From Couchioplanes caeruleus (lineage in GTDB: Bacteria > Actinomycetota > Actinomycetes > Mycobacteriales > Micromonosporaceae): a DNA stretch of 64,000 nucleotides. The notes under the pieces are model-generated. The model had not been told where the DNA came from, made no database searches, and saw nothing but the letters and a program-made list of their open reading frames with translations. The stretch covers positions 2,611,501 through 2,675,500 of the forward strand of contig NZ_CP092183.1 of the NCBI RefSeq assembly GCF_023499255.1, in the 5' to 3' direction. This document shows positions 9,490 through 63,403 of this stretch, in pieces (the stretch's first letter is position 1; every line of letters starts with the position of its first letter). Made by a program: the position numbers and the translations under genes.

Positions 9490-9507
9490 GCAACCCTGCT
9501 GCACCCG
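9490..9507 (+). promoter_or_regulatory. TcrA-box-like direct repeat upstream of the first FliA-like sigma gene
   Basis: GCAACCC-TGCT-GCACCCG matches the pattern GCA(A/C)CCG-n4-GCA(A/C)CCG at 13 of 14 defined positions. It lies 97-114 bases before the sigma start codon and is on the coding strand. The pattern is my recollection of the site of TcrA, an orphan response regulator of Actinoplanes missouriensis. Confidence 0.6.
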
Positions 9508-9603
9508 AGTGTGACCCGTCCTGCACCTCGCGGATCAGACCGTTCTCCTCAGCGCCGGACTCTCCCCCCACCGTCCGGCCGGTACCTTCCGAGGAGACCC
9601 CCT

Positions 9604-10446
9604 ATGAGCGGTGCTGTTGAGGTCGACCGCCGTCGTGAGGACACCGTACGGGCGCACATGCCGCTCGTCGGCCACCTGGTCCGCGAGATGCTCGCCCGGG
9701 TGCCCGCCCACGTGAACCGCGACGATCTGCTCTCGGCCGGGTACGCGGCGCTGGTCGCGGCCGCCCGTGGTTTCGACGAGTCCCGAGGTGTGCCGTTCGC
9801 CCGGTTCGCGGCGGCGCGGGTCCGGGGCGCCCTGCTGGACGAGCTGCGCGGCCTGGACTGGGCGAGCCGCTCGGTGCGGCAGCGGGCCCGGCGTACCGAC
9901 TCGGCGCGCCAGGAGCTGACCGCCGAGCTGGGCCGTACGCCCACCCTGGCCGAGGTCGCCGAGCGGCTGGGCTGTTCGGTCGAGGACATCGAGTCGGCCG
10001 ACGACGACGTGCAGCGTGCCGTGGTGTTCAGCCTGCAGGGCTTCGCCACCGCCGGCGCCGACGACATGGTGACCGAGCCGAGCGCCGGCCCGGAGGAGAT
10101 GCTGATCCGCCGCGAGCGCCTGGGCTACCTGCGGCACGCGATCGAGGTCCTGCCCGAGCGCCTGCGCGTGGTCATCACCGGGTACTTCTTCGACGAGCGT
10201 CCGATGGCGCAGATCGCCGCCGATCTGGGGGTGACCGAGTCCCGCGTCTCGCAGCTGCGCGCCGAGGCGTTGTCGCTGCTCAAGGACGGCCTGAACATCC
10301 ACCTCAACCCGGGCGTGGCCACCTCCGTCAAGGACGGCTGCGTGGCCCGGCGCCGGGCGGCGTACTACGACCAGATCGCGACCCGGGGCACCCTGCGGGA
10401 CCGGCTCGCGCTCACCGGCCCGGACGGTCTGCCCGTCGCGGCCTGA
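9604..10446 (+). CDS. FliA/WhiG-family (sigma-28-like) RNA polymerase sigma factor
   Basis: 280 residues, group 3 sigma-70 protein. Region 2 contains HMPLVGHLVREML and a core-binding and -10 recognition stretch ending ARVRGALLDELRGLDWASRSV, close to the GAxLDExRxxDWxPRSV signature of FliA. Region 3 follows (ELGRTPTLAEVAERLG), and region 4 is FDERPMAQIAADLGVTESRVSQLRAEAL near residues 195-225. A 50-residue C-terminal extension (ARRRAAYYDQIATRGTLRDRLAL) recurs in the paralogue at 13624-14532. ATG at 9604 has AGGAGA upstream. In Actinoplanes several FliA-family factors drive flagellar, sporangium and spore genes; which one this is cannot be told here. Confidence 0.92.
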   Translation: MSGAVEVDRRREDTVRAHMPLVGHLVREMLARVPAHVNRDDLLSAGYAALVAAARGFDESRGVPFARFAAARVRGALLDELRGLDWASRSVRQRARRTDSARQELTAELGRTPTLAEVAERLGCSVEDIESADDDVQRAVVFSLQGFATAGADDMVTEPSAGPEEMLIRRERLGYLRHAIEVLPERLRVVITGYFFDERPMAQIAADLGVTESRVSQLRAEALSLLKDGLNIHLNPGVATSVKDGCVARRRAAYYDQIATRGTLRDRLALTGPDGLPVAA

Positions 10447-10463
10447 ACCCGTAGGCGGACAAC

Positions 10464-10499
10464 GAGGCCCGGTCCCACGTCGCTGGGGGATCGGGCCTC
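10464..10499. terminator. Terminator between convergent sigma and lipoprotein genes
   Basis: GAGGCCCG at 10464-10471 pairs perfectly with CGGGCCTC at 10492-10499, and an inner TCCC/GGGA pairing extends the stem. It sits between two convergent stop codons. Confidence 0.7.
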
Positions 10500-10513
10500 G
10501 CCGCGTACGGGGG

Positions 10514-11032
10514 TCAGGCGTTGGCGCAGGTGCCGGCCTTCTTCTGCAGGGCGATGGCCCGGTCGGCGCCCTTGGCGTAGAGGGCCAGGCCCTCCTTGGC
10601 GGGCTCGAGCTTCCAGGCGTCCTGCTCGTACACCATCGTGTACGACTGCGCGGCGACCAGCTGCTTGGCGATGACGACGGCCTTGTCGGCACCGTCCATC
10701 CGGGCGCTGGTCAGCTGGATGGACAGGCCCTTGCGGGAACAGGTCTCGTTGAGCTTGACGTAGTCCGCCTTGCTGATCGCGGCCTTGCCGGCGGCGGTGT
10801 ACATCTCCCAGGCGCCGCCGAAGTCGCCGCCGCTGAAGCGGTCGAACACGGTCTGCGCGGCGGCCTTGGCGCCCTCGAGGGTCTTGGGCTCCGGTCCGCC
10901 GGCGGCGGCCGCGGCGGCGTTGCCGGCCGGGGCGTCGCCCGAGTCGTCGGAACAGGCGGAGGAGAAGGCGAGCGCGGCGACCGCGACGAGGGCGACGGCG
11001 CCGAGACGACGGAACGGGTGGCTGTGGTTCAT
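10514..11032 (-). CDS. Small secreted lipoprotein, unknown function
   Basis: 172 residues. An N-terminal basic segment and hydrophobic core end in the lipobox FSSAC, with the lipidated Cys at about residue 27, followed by an acidic/Ala-rich linker. The mature part (KTLEGAKAAAQTVFDRFSGGDFGGAWEMYT) resembles small NTF2-like lipoproteins that begin with an alpha helix and a TWE/AWEMY motif, but the similarity is too weak to assign a function. The start ATG at 11032 lies upstream of the hydrophobic segment. It is convergent with the first sigma factor. About 250 bases separate it from helD, including the odd hairpin at 11181-11222. Confidence 0.8.
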   Translation of the reverse strand: MNHSHPFRRLGAVALVAVAALAFSSACSDDSGDAPAGNAAAAAAGGPEPKTLEGAKAAAQTVFDRFSGGDFGGAWEMYTAAGKAAISKADYVKLNETCSRKGLSIQLTSARMDGADKAVVIAKQLVAAQSYTMVYEQDAWKLEPAKEGLALYAKGADRAIALQKKAGTCANA

Positions 11033-11180
11033 GACCCGCTTAAAGGTGGAGCCCCCATCGGCGTAACGGCCGGCACCGCACGGTGACGGATTCCTGACAC
11101 TGCCTGCCGCGTGGCGTAACCTCCGCCACGGTGTCGTCAGGGGTAACGCGGACCGGCTATTCTGAGCGTTTCCAAGCAAC

Positions 11181-11222
11181 AAAAAAGACGACCCTCTGAT
11201 GGAGAAAATCAGAATGGTCGTC
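11181..11222 (-). terminator. Intrinsic-terminator-like hairpin with T6 tail on the minus strand, upstream of helD
   Basis: Read on the minus strand, GACGACC and TCTGAT pair with ATCAGA and GGTCGTC around the 7-base loop TTTCTCC, and the stem is followed at once by TTTTTT (A6 at 11181-11186 on the plus strand). Such T-tracts are rare in this genome. On the plus strand it would be a hairpin in the helD leader. Confidence 0.6.
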
Positions 11223-11231
11223 GACGGCCGA

Positions 11232-11262
11232 ATGCTACCACATCAGGGAGTGGTTTTGTCAA
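11232..11262 (-). promoter_or_regulatory. Putative minus-strand promoter antisense to the helD leader
   Basis: TTGACA (11262-11257) and TAGCAT (11237-11232) are separated by 19 bases, slightly long for a housekeeping promoter. A start about 7 bases downstream would lead straight into the T6 hairpin, giving a roughly 50-base RNA. Confidence 0.4.
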
Positions 11263-11285
11263 GCTCCGCCGACGGTACGGACACC

Positions 11286-13568
11286 ATGCGGAACGATGAC
11301 ATCGAGTCCGAACAGGCCTATCTGACCACGCTGTACGACCGCCTCGACGTGCTGCGTGAGCAGGCCGCCGACCGGTTGCGCGCGATCCTGCTCGAGGCCG
11401 GTGGCACCCCGCAGGGCCGTTCCCAGCGCGAGGCCACCCGCAGCCATTGGGCCGAGCAGGTCGCCCAGATGAATTCCGTCGAGAACGGACTGTGTTTCGG
11501 CCGGCTGGATTTCACCGACGACGCGCCGCAGTACATCGGCCGGCTCGGACTGTTCGCCGAGGACCGTGACCGCGATCCGCTGCTGGTCGACTGGCGCGCG
11601 CCGGCCGCCCGGCCCTTCTACCTGGCGACCGCCGTGTCGCCTGCGGGGGTGACCCGCCGCCGGCACCTGCGCACCAAGGGCCGTCAGCTGACCGGCATCG
11701 ACGACGAGGTGCTCGACCTCACCGCCGGGGCGGGCGGCCGCGAGGACGTGACCGGCGAGGCGGCGCTGCTGTCCGCGCTGGGGGCGAACCGTACGGGCCG
11801 GATGCGCGACATCGTCGAGACGATCCAGGCCGAGCAGGACGAGGTGATCCGCGCCGGGCTGCCGGGCGTGATGGTGGTGCAGGGCGGCCCCGGCACCGGC
11901 AAGACCGCCGTCGCGCTGCACCGCGCGGCGTACCTGCTCTACACCCACCGCGCGCAACTGACGAAGCAGGGCGTGCTGATCCTCGGTCCGAACGCGACGT
12001 TCCTGCGCTACATCTCGCAGGTGCTGCCGTCGCTGGCCGAAACCGGCGTGCTGCTCGCCACTCTCGGCGACATGTTCCCCGGGGTGACCGCCCGCGCGTC
12101 CGAGGCGCCCGGGACGGCGGCGCTCAAGGGCCGCCTCGAGATGCTCGACGTGCTCGCCCGCGCGGTCGCCGACCGGCAGACCGTGCCGGACGACTACATC
12201 GAGGTCGACCACGACGGCTATCCGCTGCGCATCGAGCGGGCCGTCTGCGAGGACGCCCGGGCCGCCGCGCGCCGCTCCGGCCGCCCGCACAACGTGGCCC
12301 GCCAGATGTTCGTCACCGAGGCGATCCACGCGCTGAGCCTGCAGATCGCCGAGCGCATCGGCGCCGACCCGCTCGGCGGCGACAACCTGCTGGAGGAGGC
12401 CGACCTCGCCGAGACCCGGCGCGAGCTGCACGAGGACGAGGACGTCCAGCGGGCGCTGTTCGAGCTGTGGCCGGTGCTCACCCCGCGGCAGGTGCTGCGC
12501 GACCTGCTCAGCGACCCCGACCGGCTCGAGTCCGCGGCGTACGACCTCACCGCCGGGGAGCGCGCGCTGCTGCTGCGGGACCGGCAGGCCCGCTGGACCC
12601 CGGCCGACGTGCCGCTGCTCGACGAGCTCGCCGAGCTGCTGGGAGTGGACGACACGCTGCGCGCCCGCGCCGCCGCCCGCGAGCGGCGCGAGGCGATCGA
12701 GTACGCCGAGGGCGTGCTGGAGATCGTCGAGGGCTCCCGGTCGCTCGACTTCGAGGACGAGGAGGAGGAGATCCTGTCCGCGGTCGACGTCGTGGACGCG
12801 AGCTCCTTCGTCGAGCGGCACGAGGTGATCGACACGCGTACCGCCGCGGAACGGGCCGCCGCGGACCGGTCGTGGGTGTTCGGGCACGTCATCGTCGACG
12901 AGGCGCAGGAGCTGTCGCCGATGGCGTGGCGGCTGCTGATGCGCCGCTGTCCCAGCCGGTCGATGACCGTGGTCGGGGACGTGGCGCAGACCGGCGACCT
13001 GTCCGGGACGACGACCTGGGACCGGGTGTTCGAGCCGTACGTGGCCCAGCGGTGGCGGCTGGTCGAGCTGACCGTCAACTACCGCACCCCCGCCGAGGTC
13101 ATGGCGGTGGCCGCGGACGTGCTGGCCGCCGTCGACCCGTCGCTGCAGCCGCCGCGCTCGGTGCGGGAGGCCGGCGTCACGCCGTGGGCGAGCCGCGTGC
13201 GGCCGGAAGCGCTCGCCGACGAGCTGACTGCGGCCGTACGCCGGGAAGCGGCCGAGGCGCAGGAGGGCAGGGTCGGTGTCCTGGTGCCCGCCGCCCTCGA
13301 GGAGTCGCTGGGCGACGCGCTGGTGGCGGCGATCCCGGAGGCCGCCGTGGGGGAGCAGCCGGACCTGCGCAACCACATCGTGCTCATGACCGTGCGGCAG
13401 GCGAAGGGCCTCGAGTTCGACAGCGTGCTCGTCGTCCAGCCCGACCAGATCATCGCCGAGAGCCCCCGCGGCCTCAGCGACCTCTACGTGGCGGTGACCC
13501 GGGCGACGCGGCGGCTGGGTGTGCTGCACACCGCCGACCTGCCGAAGGTGCTGAACGCGCTGGCGTGA
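11286..13568 (+). CDS. helD: HelD-family helicase-like RNA polymerase recycling factor
   Basis: 760 residues, the length of actinobacterial HelD/HelR. This superfamily-1 (UvrD-like) ATPase removes stalled RNA polymerase from DNA, and some members protect it from rifamycins. Visible features are an N-terminal helical arm (EQAYLTTLYDRLDVLREQAADRL), the inserted DPLLVDWRAPAARPFY segment typical of HelD, Walker A GGPGTGKT near residues 200-207, HVIVDEAQELSPM near 537, and a C-terminal helicase lobe with VRQAKGLEFDSVLV and LYVAVTRATRRL. ATG at 11286 is preferred because the frame upstream runs through the A6/hairpin element and has no family likeness; the ribosome-binding site is weak. Two FliA-like sigma genes lie on either side. 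Confidence 0.92.
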   Translation: MRNDDIESEQAYLTTLYDRLDVLREQAADRLRAILLEAGGTPQGRSQREATRSHWAEQVAQMNSVENGLCFGRLDFTDDAPQYIGRLGLFAEDRDRDPLLVDWRAPAARPFYLATAVSPAGVTRRRHLRTKGRQLTGIDDEVLDLTAGAGGREDVTGEAALLSALGANRTGRMRDIVETIQAEQDEVIRAGLPGVMVVQGGPGTGKTAVALHRAAYLLYTHRAQLTKQGVLILGPNATFLRYISQVLPSLAETGVLLATLGDMFPGVTARASEAPGTAALKGRLEMLDVLARAVADRQTVPDDYIEVDHDGYPLRIERAVCEDARAAARRSGRPHNVARQMFVTEAIHALSLQIAERIGADPLGGDNLLEEADLAETRRELHEDEDVQRALFELWPVLTPRQVLRDLLSDPDRLESAAYDLTAGERALLLRDRQARWTPADVPLLDELAELLGVDDTLRARAAARERREAIEYAEGVLEIVEGSRSLDFEDEEEEILSAVDVVDASSFVERHEVIDTRTAAERAAADRSWVFGHVIVDEAQELSPMAWRLLMRRCPSRSMTVVGDVAQTGDLSGTTTWDRVFEPYVAQRWRLVELTVNYRTPAEVMAVAADVLAAVDPSLQPPRSVREAGVTPWASRVRPEALADELTAAVRREAAEAQEGRVGVLVPAALEESLGDALVAAIPEAAVGEQPDLRNHIVLMTVRQAKGLEFDSVLVVQPDQIIAESPRGLSDLYVAVTRATRRLGVLHTADLPKVLNALA

Positions 13569-13577
13569 GACACGCGA

Positions 13578-13608
13578 GAGGGGCCGGCGCTGTGTGCGCC
13601 GGCCCCTC
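13578..13608. terminator. Bidirectional terminator between helD and the second sigma gene
   Basis: A perfect 13-base-pair stem, GAGGGGCCGGCGC (13578-13590) with GCGCCGGCCCCTC (13596-13608), closes a 5-base loop TGTGT. It lies between two convergent stop codons. Confidence 0.85.
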
Positions 13609-13623
13609 GTCACCGCTGAAGCG

Positions 13624-14532
13624 TCACGCGGCACCCTGGGCGTACGGGCTGAGCCCGTGCGCGTTGGTCAGGGCCAGCCGCGAGTGCATGTTCGTGTTCC
13701 CGGCGATCGACGCGTAGTAGCTCGCCCGGCGGCGCGCCGTGATGCTCTCCGGGTTCTCCGGCACCGGCGCCAGGTGCGGGTCGAGGTGCGTGTTGATGCC
13801 GTCCTTGAGCAGCGACAGCGCCTCGGCGCGCAGCTGCGAGATGCGGCTCTCGGTGACGCCCAGGTCGGCGGCGATGTCCGCCATCGGGCGCTCCTTGAGG
13901 AAGTACTCGGTGATGACGAACTGCAGCCGCTCCGGCAGCGAGCCGATCGCGTGGTGCAGGTAGCCGATCTGCTCGCGGCGGATCAGCATCTCCTCCGGCC
14001 CCGGCGTGCGCTCGGTGACCAGGTCGTCGGCGCTGCTGGTGGTGAAGCCCTGCAGGGACAGGACGGTGGCGCGCTGCACGTCGTTGTCGGTCTGGTGCAG
14101 GTCCGTGGTGGTGGTGCCCAGCGCCTGCGCCAGCTCCTCGTTCGTCGGCGTACGCCCGAGCGTGGTGGTGAGGTTCTGCCGGGTGGCGTCGGTGGCGCGG
14201 GCCTTGCTGCGCACCGAGCGGGTGGCCCAGTCCAGCGAACGCAGCTCGTCGAGGATCGCGCCGCGGATGCGGGTGGTCGCGAAGCGGTGGAACGGGATGC
14301 CGCGCTCGGGGTCCCAGCCACGGGCCGCGGTGACGAGCGCGTGCAGGCCGGCGCTGGTCAGGTCGTCGCGGTGGATGTGGTTCGGGATGCGGGTGAGCAT
14401 GTCGCGCACGAGGTGGCCGACCAGCGGCATGTGCGTACGGATCAGCTCCTCCTGCTCGGCGGCGGACAGGGCCGGCACGGCGGTCGTGTCGGCGGCGTCG
14501 CAGTCGGCAGCGGTCGTCATGGTGCTGGTCAT
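13624..14532 (-). CDS. FliA/WhiG-family sigma factor, paralogue of the first
   Basis: 302 residues. It has the same plan and many identical blocks as the gene at 9604: HMPLVGHLVRDMLTRIP, TTRIRGAILDELRSLDWATRSVR, DNDVQRATVLSLQGF, GPEEMLIRRE, ERPMADIAADLGVTESRISQLRAEALSLLKDG, and a related C-terminal tail. An extra N-terminal 30 residues are Thr/Ala/Asp-rich. ATG at 14532 has GGGGGA 8 bases upstream; ATG at 14520 is a possible alternative. A three-copy GCAACCG-type repeat lies about 100 bases upstream in the same orientation and distance as for the first paralogue, so the two are probably controlled together. Role in motile-spore development is inferred from family and context. Confidence 0.92.
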   Translation of the reverse strand: MTSTMTTAADCDAADTTAVPALSAAEQEELIRTHMPLVGHLVRDMLTRIPNHIHRDDLTSAGLHALVTAARGWDPERGIPFHRFATTRIRGAILDELRSLDWATRSVRSKARATDATRQNLTTTLGRTPTNEELAQALGTTTTDLHQTDNDVQRATVLSLQGFTTSSADDLVTERTPGPEEMLIRREQIGYLHHAIGSLPERLQFVITEYFLKERPMADIAADLGVTESRISQLRAEALSLLKDGINTHLDPHLAPVPENPESITARRRASYYASIAGNTNMHSRLALTNAHGLSPYAQGAA

Positions 14533-14623
14533 GTCGTTTCCCCCGGTTGTTGTCGGTGGCCCGTGGCTGGTGGGCGGCACCGGCTGACAAGGGGAAACTC
14601 TGGGTGACTGCGGGTACAGGTTC

Positions 14624-14651
14624 CGGTTGCGGAACGTTGCTGCGCGGTTGC
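14624..14651 (-). promoter_or_regulatory. TcrA-box-like repeats upstream of the second FliA-like sigma gene
   Basis: On the minus strand GCAACCG (14651-14645), CGCA, GCAACGT (14640-14634) matches 12 of 14 positions of GCA(A/C)CCG-n4-GCA(A/C)CCG. A further GCAACCG (14630-14624) follows after 3 bases. The pair ends 102 bases before the start codon. Confidence 0.55.
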
Positions 14652-36194: not shown

Positions 36195-36860
36195 TCAGGA
36201 GGCGGGCTGAACCTGGAACGAGCTGTCCGCCGTGAACGTCGCCGAGCCGTCCGGTTCGTCGATGTAGAGCTCGGTGCCGCGCCGGTGCACCACGTGGTCC
36301 GGGTAGTTCTTCGAGGTCAGCCGTACGGTCCCGGCGGCCGGCCCCGGCTGCGGGCAGAACGTGGCGTCGTTGCGGAAGAGGTCCGAGTCGTCCGTGGCGT
36401 CGAAGCGCAGCCGGTAGTCGAAGTGGCGCAGGTATCTGCCGTCCTCGGCCCGGAACGAGAAGCAGGTCGGGTCCGCGAGGCCGGGGCCGGCGACCAGGAC
36501 CATCCGCTCGTCCGGCGCCATCGCGGCGAAGCCGTTCGCCGAGGTCAGGTGCGTGTCCGGGTCGTCGAGCGGGGCCAGCAGCCAGGAACCGGCGGCGAGG
36601 CGGGGCCGCGACGGGCTCGGCGGGGCCGCCGACGAGGGTGCCGGTGCCGGAGGCTGGGTGCGCGGTTGCGGCTCGTCCGCGGCGGCGCGCCAGATGGTGT
36701 AGCCGAGGGCCAGGACGCCGACGATGCCCGCGCACACGAGGGCGGTGACCGCGGGGTGGGTACGGGTGAGCAGGCCCGGCCGGGGCTCCCGGACGTCGAC
36801 GCCGCCACGCCCGTAGACGGTGCCGGCGGGGCGCTGTGGTTCGGGTGCCTGACCGGTCAT
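36195..36860 (-). CDS. Membrane-anchored protein with extracellular AbfB (CBM42-like) domain
   Basis: 221 residues. A cytoplasmic 35-residue N-terminus leads to one transmembrane helix (about 40-60: VTALVCAGIVGVLALGYTIW), then a Pro/Ser/Ala linker. The outside domain (about 95-220) has the alpha-L-arabinofuranosidase B fold pattern: YLRHFDYRLRFD, SDLFRNDATFCPQPG, TVRLTSKNYPDHVVHRRGTELYID, STFTADSSFQ. It therefore probably binds arabinofuranosyl or similar sugars, perhaps in the cell's own wall or matrix, and has no catalytic domain. ATG at 36860 has GGAGAAGG upstream, 32 bases from the inferred transcription start. A perfect TcrA-box-like repeat lies 110-127 bases upstream in the same orientation. 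Confidence 0.85.
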   Translation of the reverse strand: MTGQAPEPQRPAGTVYGRGGVDVREPRPGLLTRTHPAVTALVCAGIVGVLALGYTIWRAAADEPQPRTQPPAPAPSSAAPPSPSRPRLAAGSWLLAPLDDPDTHLTSANGFAAMAPDERMVLVAGPGLADPTCFSFRAEDGRYLRHFDYRLRFDATDDSDLFRNDATFCPQPGPAAGTVRLTSKNYPDHVVHRRGTELYIDEPDGSATFTADSSFQVQPAS

Positions 36861-36969: not shown

Positions 36970-36987
36970 CGGGTGCAGCTCGGTTGC
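36970..36987 (-). promoter_or_regulatory. Perfect TcrA-box-like direct repeat
   Basis: On the minus strand GCAACCG-AGCT-GCACCCG matches all 14 defined positions of GCA(A/C)CCG-n4-GCA(A/C)CCG. It lies between the divergent AbfB gene (110 bases to its start) and the small gene at 37041 (54 bases to its start). Confidence 0.65.
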
Positions 36988-55229: not shown

Positions 55230-56207
55230 TTATCGCTTGGGCTGGACGCTGGGCTGCGAGCCCTGGTGGAACGGCGTGCGCGCGCCGGTGGACAGGTTGA
55301 CCACCATCACCCACGAGCCGCTCTTGTAGGTTCCGCTCACCACGGCGCGGGTGCTGTCCACGTACGCGAGCTCCCGGTCCTGGGCCGCGCCGACCGTACG
55401 CTTCGCGCCCGTCGCGGTGTCGTACTCCTCGACGTGCACGGGCTGGTCGTCCGCCGCGGTCTCGCCCTTCTGGTACGCCGTCCACGCCAGCTTCGCCCCG
55501 TCCGCGCGCCAGCAGGGGACGACCGCGAACCCGGAGTTCTGCCGGCTGCCGCCCCCGTACGCCGCGACGGTCTTCTCGCCGCCGGTCGCCACGGTGCCCA
55601 CGCTCAGGCAGGCGTCGTAGATCGACTCGCAGTCCCCGCCGCGGAACGCGACCTTGCTCCCGTCGGGCGACCATGCCACGGCGTCGTCGTACCGGAGCCG
55701 CTCGCTCAGCGACCCCGTCGCGGCGGCCGTCGCGGCCGGCTCGGCGGGCAGCTCCTCATCGCGGCAGTAGCTCGGGAACAGCACCTGCGGCTGCGCGCCG
55801 GCCACCGTCGCCGAGATCCGGTACACCCCCGGGCCGCCGGAGCACGACAGCGAGGCGAACGCGATCCACGAGCCGTCCGCCGACCACGACGGCCCGGCCG
55901 CGGCCCGCGTGGTGAGCCGCCGCTTCGCGCTCCCGTCGGCCTTCATGGTCCACAACTGACCGTTCCGCAGCAGGGCGATCGACCGCCCGTCCGCCGACCA
56001 CCGCGGCCGCGACCATCCACCCCCGGTGGTCACCCGCGTCTCGGCGGCGCCCTTGCTGACGTACACATCCCCGCTGCGCACGTACGCGACGAGGCTCGGC
56101 ATGCTCGGCACGGCAGCGGCGGCGGGCGCGGGCGCCGCGATCGAGACCCCGGCGATCCCCGCCGCCGCCACCATCAGATTTCCGGTTACCCGCCCGAACA
56201 CCGACAT
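55230..56207 (-). CDS. Secreted TolB-like/WD40-type beta-propeller protein
   Basis: 325 residues. The signal peptide ends near residue 35 (APAPAAAA-V). Repeated propeller blades each carry the PD40 pattern: SRPRWSADGRSIALLRNGQLW, AGPSWSADGSWIAFASL, DAVAWSPDGSKVAFRGG, and VPCWRADGAKLAWTAY. Cys residues (CSGG, CRDEE, CESIYDAC) could form disulfides. No catalytic motif; probably a binding or sensing protein outside the cell. ATG at 56207 precedes the signal peptide. TcrA-box-like repeats lie 51-68 and 160-177 bases upstream, in the opposite orientation to the gene. Confidence 0.87.
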   Translation of the reverse strand: MSVFGRVTGNLMVAAAGIAGVSIAAPAPAAAAVPSMPSLVAYVRSGDVYVSKGAAETRVTTGGGWSRPRWSADGRSIALLRNGQLWTMKADGSAKRRLTTRAAAGPSWSADGSWIAFASLSCSGGPGVYRISATVAGAQPQVLFPSYCRDEELPAEPAATAAATGSLSERLRYDDAVAWSPDGSKVAFRGGDCESIYDACLSVGTVATGGEKTVAAYGGGSRQNSGFAVVPCWRADGAKLAWTAYQKGETAADDQPVHVEEYDTATGAKRTVGAAQDRELAYVDSTRAVVSGTYKSGSWVMVVNLSTGARTPFHQGSQPSVQPKR

Positions 56208-56257: not shown

Positions 56258-56275
56258 GCAACCGCGCTGCACCTA
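56258..56275 (+). promoter_or_regulatory. TcrA-box-like direct repeat (proximal)
   Basis: GCAACCG-CGCT-GCACCTA matches 12 of 14 positions of GCA(A/C)CCG-n4-GCA(A/C)CCG. It lies 51 bases upstream of the propeller gene, on the opposite strand. Confidence 0.4.
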
Positions 56276-56366
56276 AGAAGTTCCCACTCCGAAACCGAAA
56301 CAATTCCGGACCGTTCGGACGATCCACCATCCGCCGGTGGACGAACCCGGTACGCACAACCCACCC

Positions 56367-56384
56367 GCAACCGCCCCGCAACCG
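56367..56384 (+). promoter_or_regulatory. Perfect TcrA-box-like direct repeat (distal)
   Basis: GCAACCG-CCCC-GCAACCG matches all 14 defined positions. It lies 160 bases upstream of the propeller gene; no credible plus-strand gene follows. Confidence 0.6.
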
Positions 56385-56639
56385 GAAGGGGCCCGCACGG
56401 TGCAGGGCCGATGGCGGTATCGGTGAGGATGCGGCGTTGATACCGGGCCGCGGAGCGCGGGGAGTGCGGACCGGACGGCCGGCGCGCCTGGCTCGTCGAC
56501 CCGGCGGTGCGGGCCGGGTGCTGCGGGATATGCGGTACGTGAGTGCCGCGGCCGGCAGCGCGCATGGTGGGCACCGGGAGACCGATCCGGCCGCCGGCCC
56601 GGCCTGCAACCGGCCGGTCGGGCTGCAGCCAGGCTGACC

Positions 56640-58929: not shown

Positions 58930-60471
58930 CTAGGTCTGCAGCGTGGAGGCCATCCGCGCCTGCTCCTCGAGCACCTCGTTCATCCGCTCCTGCACCGCGC
59001 TGATCTGCCCGATGGTCTCGCTGGTGGTCAGGATGCCGGCGGAGACCGTACGCGTGCTGTTCTGGATGCCGTTGATCTGTTCCGACACCCGCTGGGTGGC
59101 CTCGGCGGTCTCCCGGGCCAGGTCCTTGACCTCCCCGGCGACGACGGCGAAACCGCGGCCGACCTCGCCGGCGCGGGCGGCCTCGATGGTCGCGTTGAGG
59201 GCGAGCAGGTTGGTCTGGTCGGCGATCGACGAAATGATCTTGATGACGTCGCCGATGGCGGCCGACGCCTGGCCCAGCGCCTCGACCTCCTGGGTCATCT
59301 CGGAGGCGCGGGCGACGGCGTCCTGGGCGACCCGGGTCGCGTCGTCGCTGGCCGCGCGCAGGCGGGAGACCGTGTCGAGCAGCGACCGCGAGTTCTCCGC
59401 CGCGTACTCGTTGCCGCGGACGATGTCGAGCCGCTGCGACACCAGCTCCTGCACGTTGCGCAGCGCCGACGCGCGGGAGTCGGACAGCTCGATGAACTCG
59501 GTGGTGAAGAAGTCCATCGTGCCGATGATCCGGCCGTGGCTCGTGATCGGCATGCAGATGCCCGAGCGGACGCCGGCCCGCTGGGCGGCGGGGGCGCGTA
59601 CGCAGTCGGTCAGCTCGCCGATGTCGCGGACGAACACCAGGTCGCGAGCCCGCCACGCGCGTCCCGAGAGGCCGACGCCCTCGGCGAAGGTGGCCGCCAG
59701 GGTCACCTTGCGGAACTCGTCGCCGGCCGAGCCCGACTCGACCTTGAACTTCAGCAGGTTGTCGTTCTCGTCGATCTCCCAGTAGGAGCCGTACGCCCAG
59801 CCGAACGCCCTGCGCACCGACTCGAGCGCGATCCGCAGCGTGGAGGGGATGTCCCGGGCCTCGCCGAGCGCGGTCACGACGTTGGTCACGGCGAGCCGGT
59901 CGCCGGCGACCTGGCGCAACTCGGCGGCGGCCAGCGCGGAGAAGCGGGCGCGCTCGGCGATGCGGGCGATCGTGGCCCACTTCTCGCTGCGCGGGCCCTC
60001 CAGGTACAGCGGCTCGGGGGAGTAGTACTCGAGGACGGCGATGACCTGGCCGTCCTGCAGCACCGGCGTGACCACGGCGGCTTCCATCCCGGCGCGCGCC
60101 GCGGCCTGGCACCGCTGGCAGTCCAGGCACTGCTCCATCGCGTCGACGTAGACCGGCAGCTTGGTGCGTACGGCGCGGCCGACGAGGCCGGTGTCCATGG
60201 GTACGGGCTTGCCGGCGATCACCGCCTGCAGCTCGTCCACCAGCGACCCGGTCTCGTAGCCCACCTCGACCTGGCCGTCCCCGGTGGGCAGCCACACCGC
60301 CCCGTAGCTGAGGTTGTGCGAGGCCACCGTGCTGTCGACGGTGACCCGCCAGGCGGTCTGCTCGTCCGTCACGCCGTCGAGATCCATGATCAGCTTCTCG
60401 AGGCTCTCGACGTCGCGCGGCACGGCCTGCAGCGCCGGGACTCCGGCCGTGCGCGAACGAAATGAGACCAC
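58930..60471 (-). CDS. Cytosolic GAF-domain methyl-accepting chemotaxis protein
   Basis: 513 residues without membrane helices. Two GAF domains span about 45-185 ([17 protein letters not shown]...[11 protein letters not shown]) and 200-345 ([22 protein letters not shown]). The signalling domain has the hairpin tip [39 protein letters not shown] near 430-470 and is followed by a short helix. It would signal to CheA-CheW from inside the cell. An unusual Cys cluster CLDCQRC (115, 118, 121) lies in GAF 1 and could bind metal or a redox cofactor. GTG at 60471 has GGGAG 7 bases upstream. A second chemoreceptor lies 1.3 kb away on the same strand. Confidence 0.92.
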
Positions 60472-61765: not shown

Positions 61766-63403
61766 TCAGACGCGGAACTGCGAGACCAGCGACTGCAGTT
61801 CCTCGGCCAGCCGGGACAGCTCCTGGGCGGTACGGCGCGACTCGGTGACGCCCTCGTTGGTGCTCTGTGCCGCCTCGGCCACGCCGCCGATGGTGCGGGC
61901 GATGTCGGTCGAGCCGCCGGCCGCCTCGGAGACGCTGCGGCCGATCTCGCTCGTGGTCGCCGTCTGCTCCTCGACCGCCGAGGCGATCGTGTCCGAGTAC
62001 GCGTTGATGCGTTCGATGACCGCGGCGATCTCGCCGATCGCGTCGACCGCGGCGGACGTGTCGTTCTGGATGGCCTGGATCCGGCTGGAGATCTCCTCGG
62101 TGGCCTTCGCGGTCTCCTGGGCCAGGTCCTTGACCTCGGACGCGACGACGGCGAAGCCCTTGCCCGCCTCGCCGGCCCGGGCCGCCTCGATGGTGGCGTT
62201 GAGCGCGAGCAGGTTGGTCTGCTCGGCGATCGAGGTGATGACCTTGACGATGTTGCCCACCTCGGCCGAGGAGACACCCAGCTTGGCGACCGTGGTGTTG
62301 GCCGACTGGGCCACCTCGACCGCGCCGCGGGCCACTCCGGCCGCGTCGGCCGCGCTCGTGGCGATCTCGCGGATGGACGCGGTCATCTGCTCGCTGGCGG
62401 CGGCGACGGTGTCCACGTTGCTGCTGACCGTGCCGGCGGCGGCGGACACCTGCTCGGCGCGGGAGCTGGTCTGCTCCGCGTTGACGGCGATGCGGCCGCT
62501 GACGTCGGTCATCTCCTGCGCGGAGCCGGCGAGCGTACGGCTGCTCCCGGTGATCTGCGAGATCGTGCTGCGCAGCGTCGCCGTGGCCCGGTCGAGCTGG
62601 GCACCCATCCGGCCGACCTCGTCCTTGCTCTTCATGTCGGCCGTCCGGGTCAGGTCTCCGGCGGCGATGCTGTCGATGATGCCCGACAGCGCCTTGACCC
62701 GGCTCACGATGCTCCGCGCGATCGCCAGGCCCAGCAGCGTGGCGAGGATCAGGCCGACGACGAGCACGACGATGACGAAGGTCCGGGCCGACTCGTACGC
62801 CGAGTGGGCCTCGGCGACGCGCGCCTTGGCGGCCGCCTCCTCCTCCGCCGCGAGCTTGTCCAGGTTGTACTTGGCACGGATGATCGCCGGCTGCAGCTGG
62901 GTGTCCCGGGCGGCCGCCATGGCAACCGCGTTGCCGCTGCCGGCCGCCGTGAGGTACGCGTCACGGGCGGCCCTGTACTTGTCCCAGAGGAAGATCGTCT
63001 GGTCCATCAGCCGCGGGTCGACGGTGCTGCCGCGGTACGCCGTGTTGTCCGCCGTGATCTGACCGTCGAGCGCCTTGATCTGCGCGACGATGTCCGGCGA
63101 CGGCGTCTGGCCGTACGTGAGCGCCTGGGCGTGCATCGTGCCGACGTCCGAGATGATCTTGTTGAGCTGCAGGGAGGCGGTGAAGTTCTCCCGGTACATC
63201 TTGTTGCCGACGTCGTTGACCTCGGCGAGCCGGACCAGCGCCACGACGCCCACGAGGGCCGCGACGATCGTCATCGCACCCACGATGATCATGATCTTCG
63301 TGTTGAGCGAGCGGTCGGCGATCCAGTCGCGCAGCGGGTTCTTGAGCTGCGGCTTGCGCGCGGACTTCGATGCTGCCCTCATGGGGCGGGCGACGGAAGG
63401 CAT
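61766..63403 (-). CDS. Transmembrane methyl-accepting chemotaxis protein
   Basis: 545 residues. The basic N-terminus precedes TM1 (about 38-58: [21 protein letters not shown]), a four-helix-bundle ligand domain of about 150 residues ([19 protein letters not shown]), TM2 (about 206-228), and HAMP ([32 protein letters not shown]). The signalling domain has the tip [38 protein letters not shown]. No pentapeptide CheR tether is seen. ATG at 63403 is chosen because a FliA-like promoter at 63457-63484 excludes the longer GTG start at 63457. The EAL gene lies upstream on the same strand. Confidence 0.94.

Follow-up and report, generated by a model that had tools for sequence, protein, structure and literature searches.

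A putative tandem double TcrA box upstream of FliA-family sigma factor genes in Couchioplanes caeruleus

In Actinoplanes missouriensis, the regulator TcrA acts as an activator through a box published as nnGCA(A/C)CCG-n4-GCA(A/C)CCGn and associated with flagellar and chemotaxis genes; for gimA and gimB, the boxes lie upstream of start points at a distance of 38 and 35 bases, respectively, from the start codon (PMC12691653). Three FliA-family sigma factors of this species, named FliA1, FliA2 and FliA3 (PMC11064477, PMC13293333, PMC11960193), serve the programme of sporangium formation, spore dormancy and dehiscence. They were reported to work together with TcrA, BldC and HhkA (PMC11064477), and the transcripts of tcrA, hhkA and fliA2 are up at least 100-fold by day 3, during sporangium formation (PMC11960193). 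Direct control of fliA genes by TcrA may already be in print (Hashiguchi 2020; Mouri 2018). Here we describe a window of 64,000 nucleotides (the whole stretch of DNA that was analysed; NZ_CP092183.1, positions 2,611,501 to 2,675,500) from the single-contig, 8.42 Mb genome of Couchioplanes caeruleus, a soil bacterium that resembles Actinoplanes, is flagellated and has flagellin genes. In this window, two convergent FliA/WhiG-family sigma factor genes, 3.2 kb apart, are each preceded by an array of four half-sites that resemble those of the TcrA box. No such four-half-site array was found in the text, figures and supplements aside, of the accessible parts of the Actinoplanes TcrA and FliA literature.

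The original prediction, made from the window sequence, had reported one TcrA-box-like repeat before each sigma gene, and its sequences, distances and coding-strand orientation were all found as claimed. GCAACCC-TGCT-GCACCCG (9490-9507, forward strand) lies 97 bases before the ATG at 9604 and has one mismatch to the published box, and GCAACCG-CGCA-GCAACGT (14651-14634, reverse strand) lies 102 bases before the ATG at 14532 and has two. The TcrA consensus used there agrees with the printed one (PMC12691653). The extent of the site did not stand, as only the upstream half had been seen and further half-sites follow at 9512-9529 and 14630-14612 (Table 1). Each array consists of four head-to-tail half-sites at 11-12-base steps, spans ~40 bp, and begins 114 (first gene) or 119 (second gene) bases before the start codon. 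PhoB/OmpR-type regulators typically bind direct repeats at 11-base steps, which suit tandem dimers, and their operators also share with the arrays the head-to-tail orientation, the place upstream of the promoter and the frequent presence of several boxes; the half-site sequence is different, and the array described here is nearly confined to sigma factor genes. With the A. missouriensis box the arrays have in common, apart from the mismatches given above, the half-site GCA(A/C)CCG, the 4-base gap, the gene-ward orientation, the position upstream of the promoter region and the association with flagellar and chemotaxis genes, but here two boxes stand in tandem, and half-sites 3 and 4 (TGACC, GCACCC) deviate from the consensus (PMC12691653). 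The sigma factors differ from FliA1-3 in that four paralogues are present, two of them forming the convergent pair.

Table 1. Sigma factor genes, putative operator sites and conserved upstream blocks in the window.
Feature	Position	Strand	Details
First FliA/WhiG-family sigma gene (class A)	9604..10446	+	280 amino acids; TIGR02479 188.2 bits
Second FliA/WhiG-family sigma gene (class B)	13624..14532	-	302 amino acids; TIGR02479 191.2 bits
Putative operator array, first sigma gene	9490..9529	+	GCAACCC 9490-9496, GCACCCG 9501-9507, TGACCCG 9512-9518, GCACCTC 9523-9529
Putative operator array, second sigma gene, half-sites 1-2	14651..14634	-	GCAACCG 14651-14645, GCAACGT 14640-14634
Putative operator array, second sigma gene, half-sites 3-4	14630..14612	-	GCAACCG 14630-14624 (shifted by one), GTACCC 14617-14612
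Conserved block TTCTCCTCAGCGCCGG between array and start, first gene	9543..9558	+	Either promoter core or arm of the leader; 48 upstream regions aligned
Conserved block GTTTCCCCTTGTCAGCCGG between array and start, second gene	14580..14598	-	50 upstream regions aligned
Exact TcrA box GCAACCGAGCTGCACCCG with third half-site-like GCACCGC	36970..36987	-	110 bases before AbfB-domain gene 36195-36860 (-)

The second sigma product exceeds the curated TIGR02479 cut-off of 189.6 bits, and the first, which falls 1.4 bits under it, was called FliA-type because it is 64% identical to the second. A scan of genome contigs for these genes gave 51 loci, 49 of them from Actinoplanes-clade relatives; the distant loci L123 and L124 were dropped, and for the first gene L079, truncated at its start, and L121, which reaches the end of its contig, were left out as well. 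Judged by the second sigma protein, the closest named relative is Nucisporomicrobium flavum of the Actinoplanes clade (98% identity). Class A orthologues are found in 48 of the 49 named loci, with a contig end cutting one, class B orthologues in all 49 by the way the loci were chosen, and the convergent pair is kept in 48 of 49, one having its first gene cut at a contig end. When the upstream regions of these orthologues were aligned, as the original prediction had proposed, the repeats proved to be conserved both in approximate position and in strand. With the window excluded, 46/47 class A and 40/49 class B named orthologues carry a box with at most two mismatches at a distance of 75-175 bases from the start, and 40/47 and 25/49, respectively, carry one with at most one mismatch. 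The corresponding rates from both strands of the same loci, 0.015 and 0.0044 per gene, overestimate chance because the real sites are included in the count. When the window's own regions are counted too, the exact box is present in 16 of the 48 upstream regions of class A and in 5 of the 50 of class B. In the same box-anchored regions, column conservation continues downstream of the first box: the conserved letters are, for class A, G at +23, A at +24, C at +26 and GCAC from +33 to +36 (98-100%) and, for class B, AC at +24/+25 (94-98%) and ACC from +36 to +38 (82-98%). A relaxed four-half-site pattern matched 44/47 class A and 26/49 class B named orthologues, compared to 0/47 and 0/49 on the opposite strand.

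The array also precedes a third FliA-type paralogue of the genome (C1:4574632-4575498, reverse strand), where it begins 112 bases before the start, and the fourth has a degenerate version, with parts resembling half-sites 2-4 only. A strict array pattern built from the half-site cores matches the genome three times, each time before a FliA-type gene (the third outside the window); because the pattern was designed on these three sites, their recovery is no test, but their being the sole matches is. Across 121 genomes of the family it gave 72 matches in 27 genomes, none with the reversed control, and 40 of the 72 lie at most 300 bases before one of the 82 listed FliA-type genes, 40 of which have the array. 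A further 393 genomes of the class yielded 6 matches in 6 genomes. We further considered 78 FliA-type upstream regions from 30 other family genomes (the 82 matches minus the four from C. caeruleus; species partly overlap the named set), of which 46 have a box with at most one mismatch, 55 with at most two, and 42 the four-half-site form, with none of this form on the opposite strand. Within this set, whose group labels were set by hand from identity and flagellin positions, three groups are weakest: the fourth paralogue, a second group (x2) of a Catenuloplanes-like genus (handles G006, G047, G067, G084 and G098), and the copies labelled as flagellin-linked in other genera. In group x2, a box with at most one mismatch is present in 1/5, but the relaxed array in 5/5, and for the flagellin-linked copies of other genera these values are 1/15 and 9/15. 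The flagellin-linked copies of the Catenuloplanes-like genus have such a box in 5/5, but the relaxed array in 0/5. Flagellin genes also adjoin the G063 gene of group o and the second of the G043 genes (o2). For the class C gene of G076, whose start is doubtful, no box was found at the expected place. By eye, and without a count, we noticed that many FliA-type genes (classes C, x2 and o) have a TTGAGG/CTGAGG motif, often with T-rich bases after it, a few tens of bases ahead of the array.

We infer, with a probability of roughly 0.78, that the array is a tandem double TcrA box, at which two OmpR-type dimers, those of TcrA, activate the downstream promoter, and that three FliA-family sigma genes are switched together in this way. 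Two dimers of the response regulator would bind one face of the DNA at the four half-sites and, with the arrays placed directly upstream of the core promoter, would activate transcription just downstream. While the mycelium is forming sporangia and flagellated spores, a single phosphorylation signal could then activate the third FliA-family sigma gene along with the two of the window, and perhaps to a weak extent also the fourth.

The best candidate for TcrA is an OmpR-type regulator of 232 amino acids (C1:714309-715007), encoded directly upstream of a CheA-type kinase gene, with receiver (PF00072) and Trans_reg_C (PF00486) domains over cut-off; the chemotaxis and flagellar cluster of the genome is located at ~714-756 kb (genes called with our own script; flagellin, FlbD, FliW, CsrA and the CheA-type kinase confirmed with Pfam, others judged by eye). 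This protein is probably TcrA. In a comparison of three OmpR-type regulators of the genome over the 121 family genomes, the candidate was present in 34: in all 31 genomes with FliA-type sigma genes and 3 of the 90 without, or, counted differently, in 32 of the 33 with flagellin over cut-off and 2 of the 88 without. Members of the genus share 98-100% identity in this protein, and for the rest of the family the value is 79-93%, apart from one genome at 65%. Exact boxes number 9.8 per 10 Mb in genomes with the candidate versus 3.2 in those without, compared to 1.6 versus 1.3 for the reversed control. A protein search with the candidate returned no TcrA-like name among the 120 matches listed. The other two regulators, C1:5519636 and C1:4730771, were set aside because their distribution does not follow the sigma genes: with identity limits that we set at 79% and 62%, respectively, close relatives are present in 8/31 and 13/31 of the sigma-bearing genomes. 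Neighbouring kinases were sought by motif at 30 OmpR-type loci, and five more loci were only gene-called.

It is also conceivable that another OmpR-family regulator, or a paralogue of TcrA, recognises a similar GCAACCG half-site and uses the arrays as its operators, and that TcrA acts elsewhere. Direct repeats at 11-base steps are general for the OmpR/PhoB family, and the three regulators compared come from 54 OmpR output-domain matches in the genome, 53 of them over cut-off. We nevertheless regard this alternative as unlikely, because the half-site equals the published TcrA half-site (PMC12691653) and, of the three regulators, just the one at C1:714309-715007 accompanies the sigma genes throughout.

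The region between array and start codon bears on how a bound TcrA would act. In the first leader, TCTCCTC (9544-9550) is complementary to the Shine-Dalgarno sequence GAGGAGA (9591-9597), and in the second, GTTTCCCC (14598-14591) is complementary to the Shine-Dalgarno region GGGGAAAC (14543-14536). The third and fourth paralogues have corresponding arms (GTTCCCCCT/AGGGGGAAC and CTCCTC/GAGGAG). These arms could be a translational lock or an inverted repeat in the DNA, and we treat the leader hairpin as a lead rather than a claim. RNAalifold pairs the Shine-Dalgarno sequence in classes A-D, x1, x2, x3f and o, and not in class 'of'. In 116 of 151 leaders, the native arm gives better pairing than an arm taken from another class. 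The mean duplex energy, -18.9 versus -20.7 in 144 control genes, is not stronger. Not every leader allowed its arm or start to be defined; the energy comparison covers 151 leaders and the count of stems of at least 7 bp fewer. Such stems were found in 29/43 class A, 5/6 class C, 5/46 class B and 0/35 leaders of other groups, compared to 12/270 controls (9/98 of controls with a strong Shine-Dalgarno sequence). GAAAGTTY-like and GCCGG-like blocks, considered as a possible FliA-type core promoter, also precede the sigma genes, with a spacing at odds with the FliA consensus. Of note, csrA and fliW are located in the flagellar cluster.

If the complementary arm is RNA, transcription would start within ~15 bases of the fourth half-site, and an array overlapping the core promoter might repress or gate it. 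The frequency of the arm in class A and C leaders speaks for such an arrangement. Its scarcity in class B and the other groups and the unremarkable duplex energies speak against it, as do the description of TcrA as an activator and the placing of its boxes upstream of the gimA and gimB start points (PMC12691653), and we consider repression or gating improbable. A chance resemblance in GC-rich DNA can be dismissed almost entirely: although matches with at most three mismatches in the window alone show no excess by count (103 versus 103.19 ± 9.68 expected), both sites are real because they are conserved in place and strand at orthologues, as well as paralogues, with 0 four-half-site matches on the opposite strand.

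Several observations weigh against control of these genes by TcrA through a double box. The second box of the window has two mismatches, and 9 of the 49 named class B orthologues have more than two; in the fourth-paralogue group, 2/8 have a box with at most one mismatch and 0/8 the four-half-site form. Of the strict array matches in the family, 32/72 lie away from listed FliA-type genes, and 42/82 of these genes are without one. Eight of the 32 are in genome G102, and 7 of these are near-identical copies of CAACCGNNCGGCACCTGTYCGGGACCGGGYCGCGCACC scattered across that genome, probably a repeat that is array-like by chance or by origin. The pattern and the classes were drawn up after the sites had been seen, so that recall is by construction. 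For the regulator, Fisher values on its co-occurrence are too small because the genomes are related, and the distribution was compared for 3 of the 54 OmpR-type domain matches. The candidate is flanked by a divergent HisKA-domain protein and the CheA-type kinase gene, and because of this HisKA-domain neighbour the description of TcrA as an 'orphan' fits it badly. Lastly, 15 of the 22 one-mismatch boxes fetched from the genome are inside genes; as only 7 are outside genes and 4 before gene starts, most of these boxes are noise.

Beyond the sigma genes, a genome-wide scan with the box pattern, also proposed originally, showed enrichment over the reversed pattern, with 110 versus 46 matches at up to one mismatch and 8 versus 0 exact matches. 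According to our gene calls, none of the 8 exact boxes falls inside a gene (19% of random places lie outside genes), and 6 of 8 lie at most 250 bases before a gene start (6.8% of random places). The products of these six genes are a CAP-domain protein, two proteins with GGDEF domains, the AbfB-domain protein of the window, a protein of 189 amino acids that begins with a signal-like stretch and matches no family over cut-off, and a receptor-like protein of the GAF-MCP type. The AbfB-domain gene, whose box the original prediction does not mention, is a possible further regulon member. In the flagellar cluster, flbD is preceded by a one-mismatch box at a distance of 97 bases. At locus L164:6055-10183, subtilase-domain, AsfR-like single-receiver and CBM96-domain genes are ordered as described for AMIS_76080-AMIS_76060 in the A. 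missouriensis asfR region (PMC11960193). Here, one-mismatch boxes are located 79 bases before the CBM96-domain gene and 1.04 kb before the called start of the subtilase-domain gene, whose true start is probably nearer to the box, since the gene as called matches just the last part of the subtilase profile. The original interpretation, that both sigma factors are switched on together in a developmental cascade, by way of TcrA, is supported in part, by the box pattern, the orthologue conservation and a plausible TcrA-type regulator and regulon; the idea was largely right, and the double-box architecture is the new part.

Elsewhere in the window there is a cluster of box-like repeats (56258-56395, forward strand) with an exact one at 56367-56384, which has no called same-strand gene within 250 bases downstream and a divergent neighbour at 55230-56207. 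Two MCP chemoreceptor-type genes on the reverse strand (58930-60423, GAF-MCP; 61766-63382, 4HB-HAMP-MCP) are far from the flagellar cluster, and no box with at most three mismatches lies just upstream of them.

A more general view, which we offer tentatively and hold to be rather doubtful as a whole, is that in flagellated Micromonosporaceae one cheA-linked OmpR-type regulator controls the FliA-family sigma genes via a dedicated double operator that is rare elsewhere and kept across genera, and that some leaders add a Shine-Dalgarno-pairing arm as a translational lock. If TcrA acts through the arrays, FliA-type sigma factors would be directly under one regulator in several flagellated genera, beyond A. 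missouriensis. The analysis yields a precise putative operator of 40 bp and a candidate TcrA orthologue whose presence marks the flagellated members of the family, and the array can be used as a search probe for the developmental programme in unstudied genomes.

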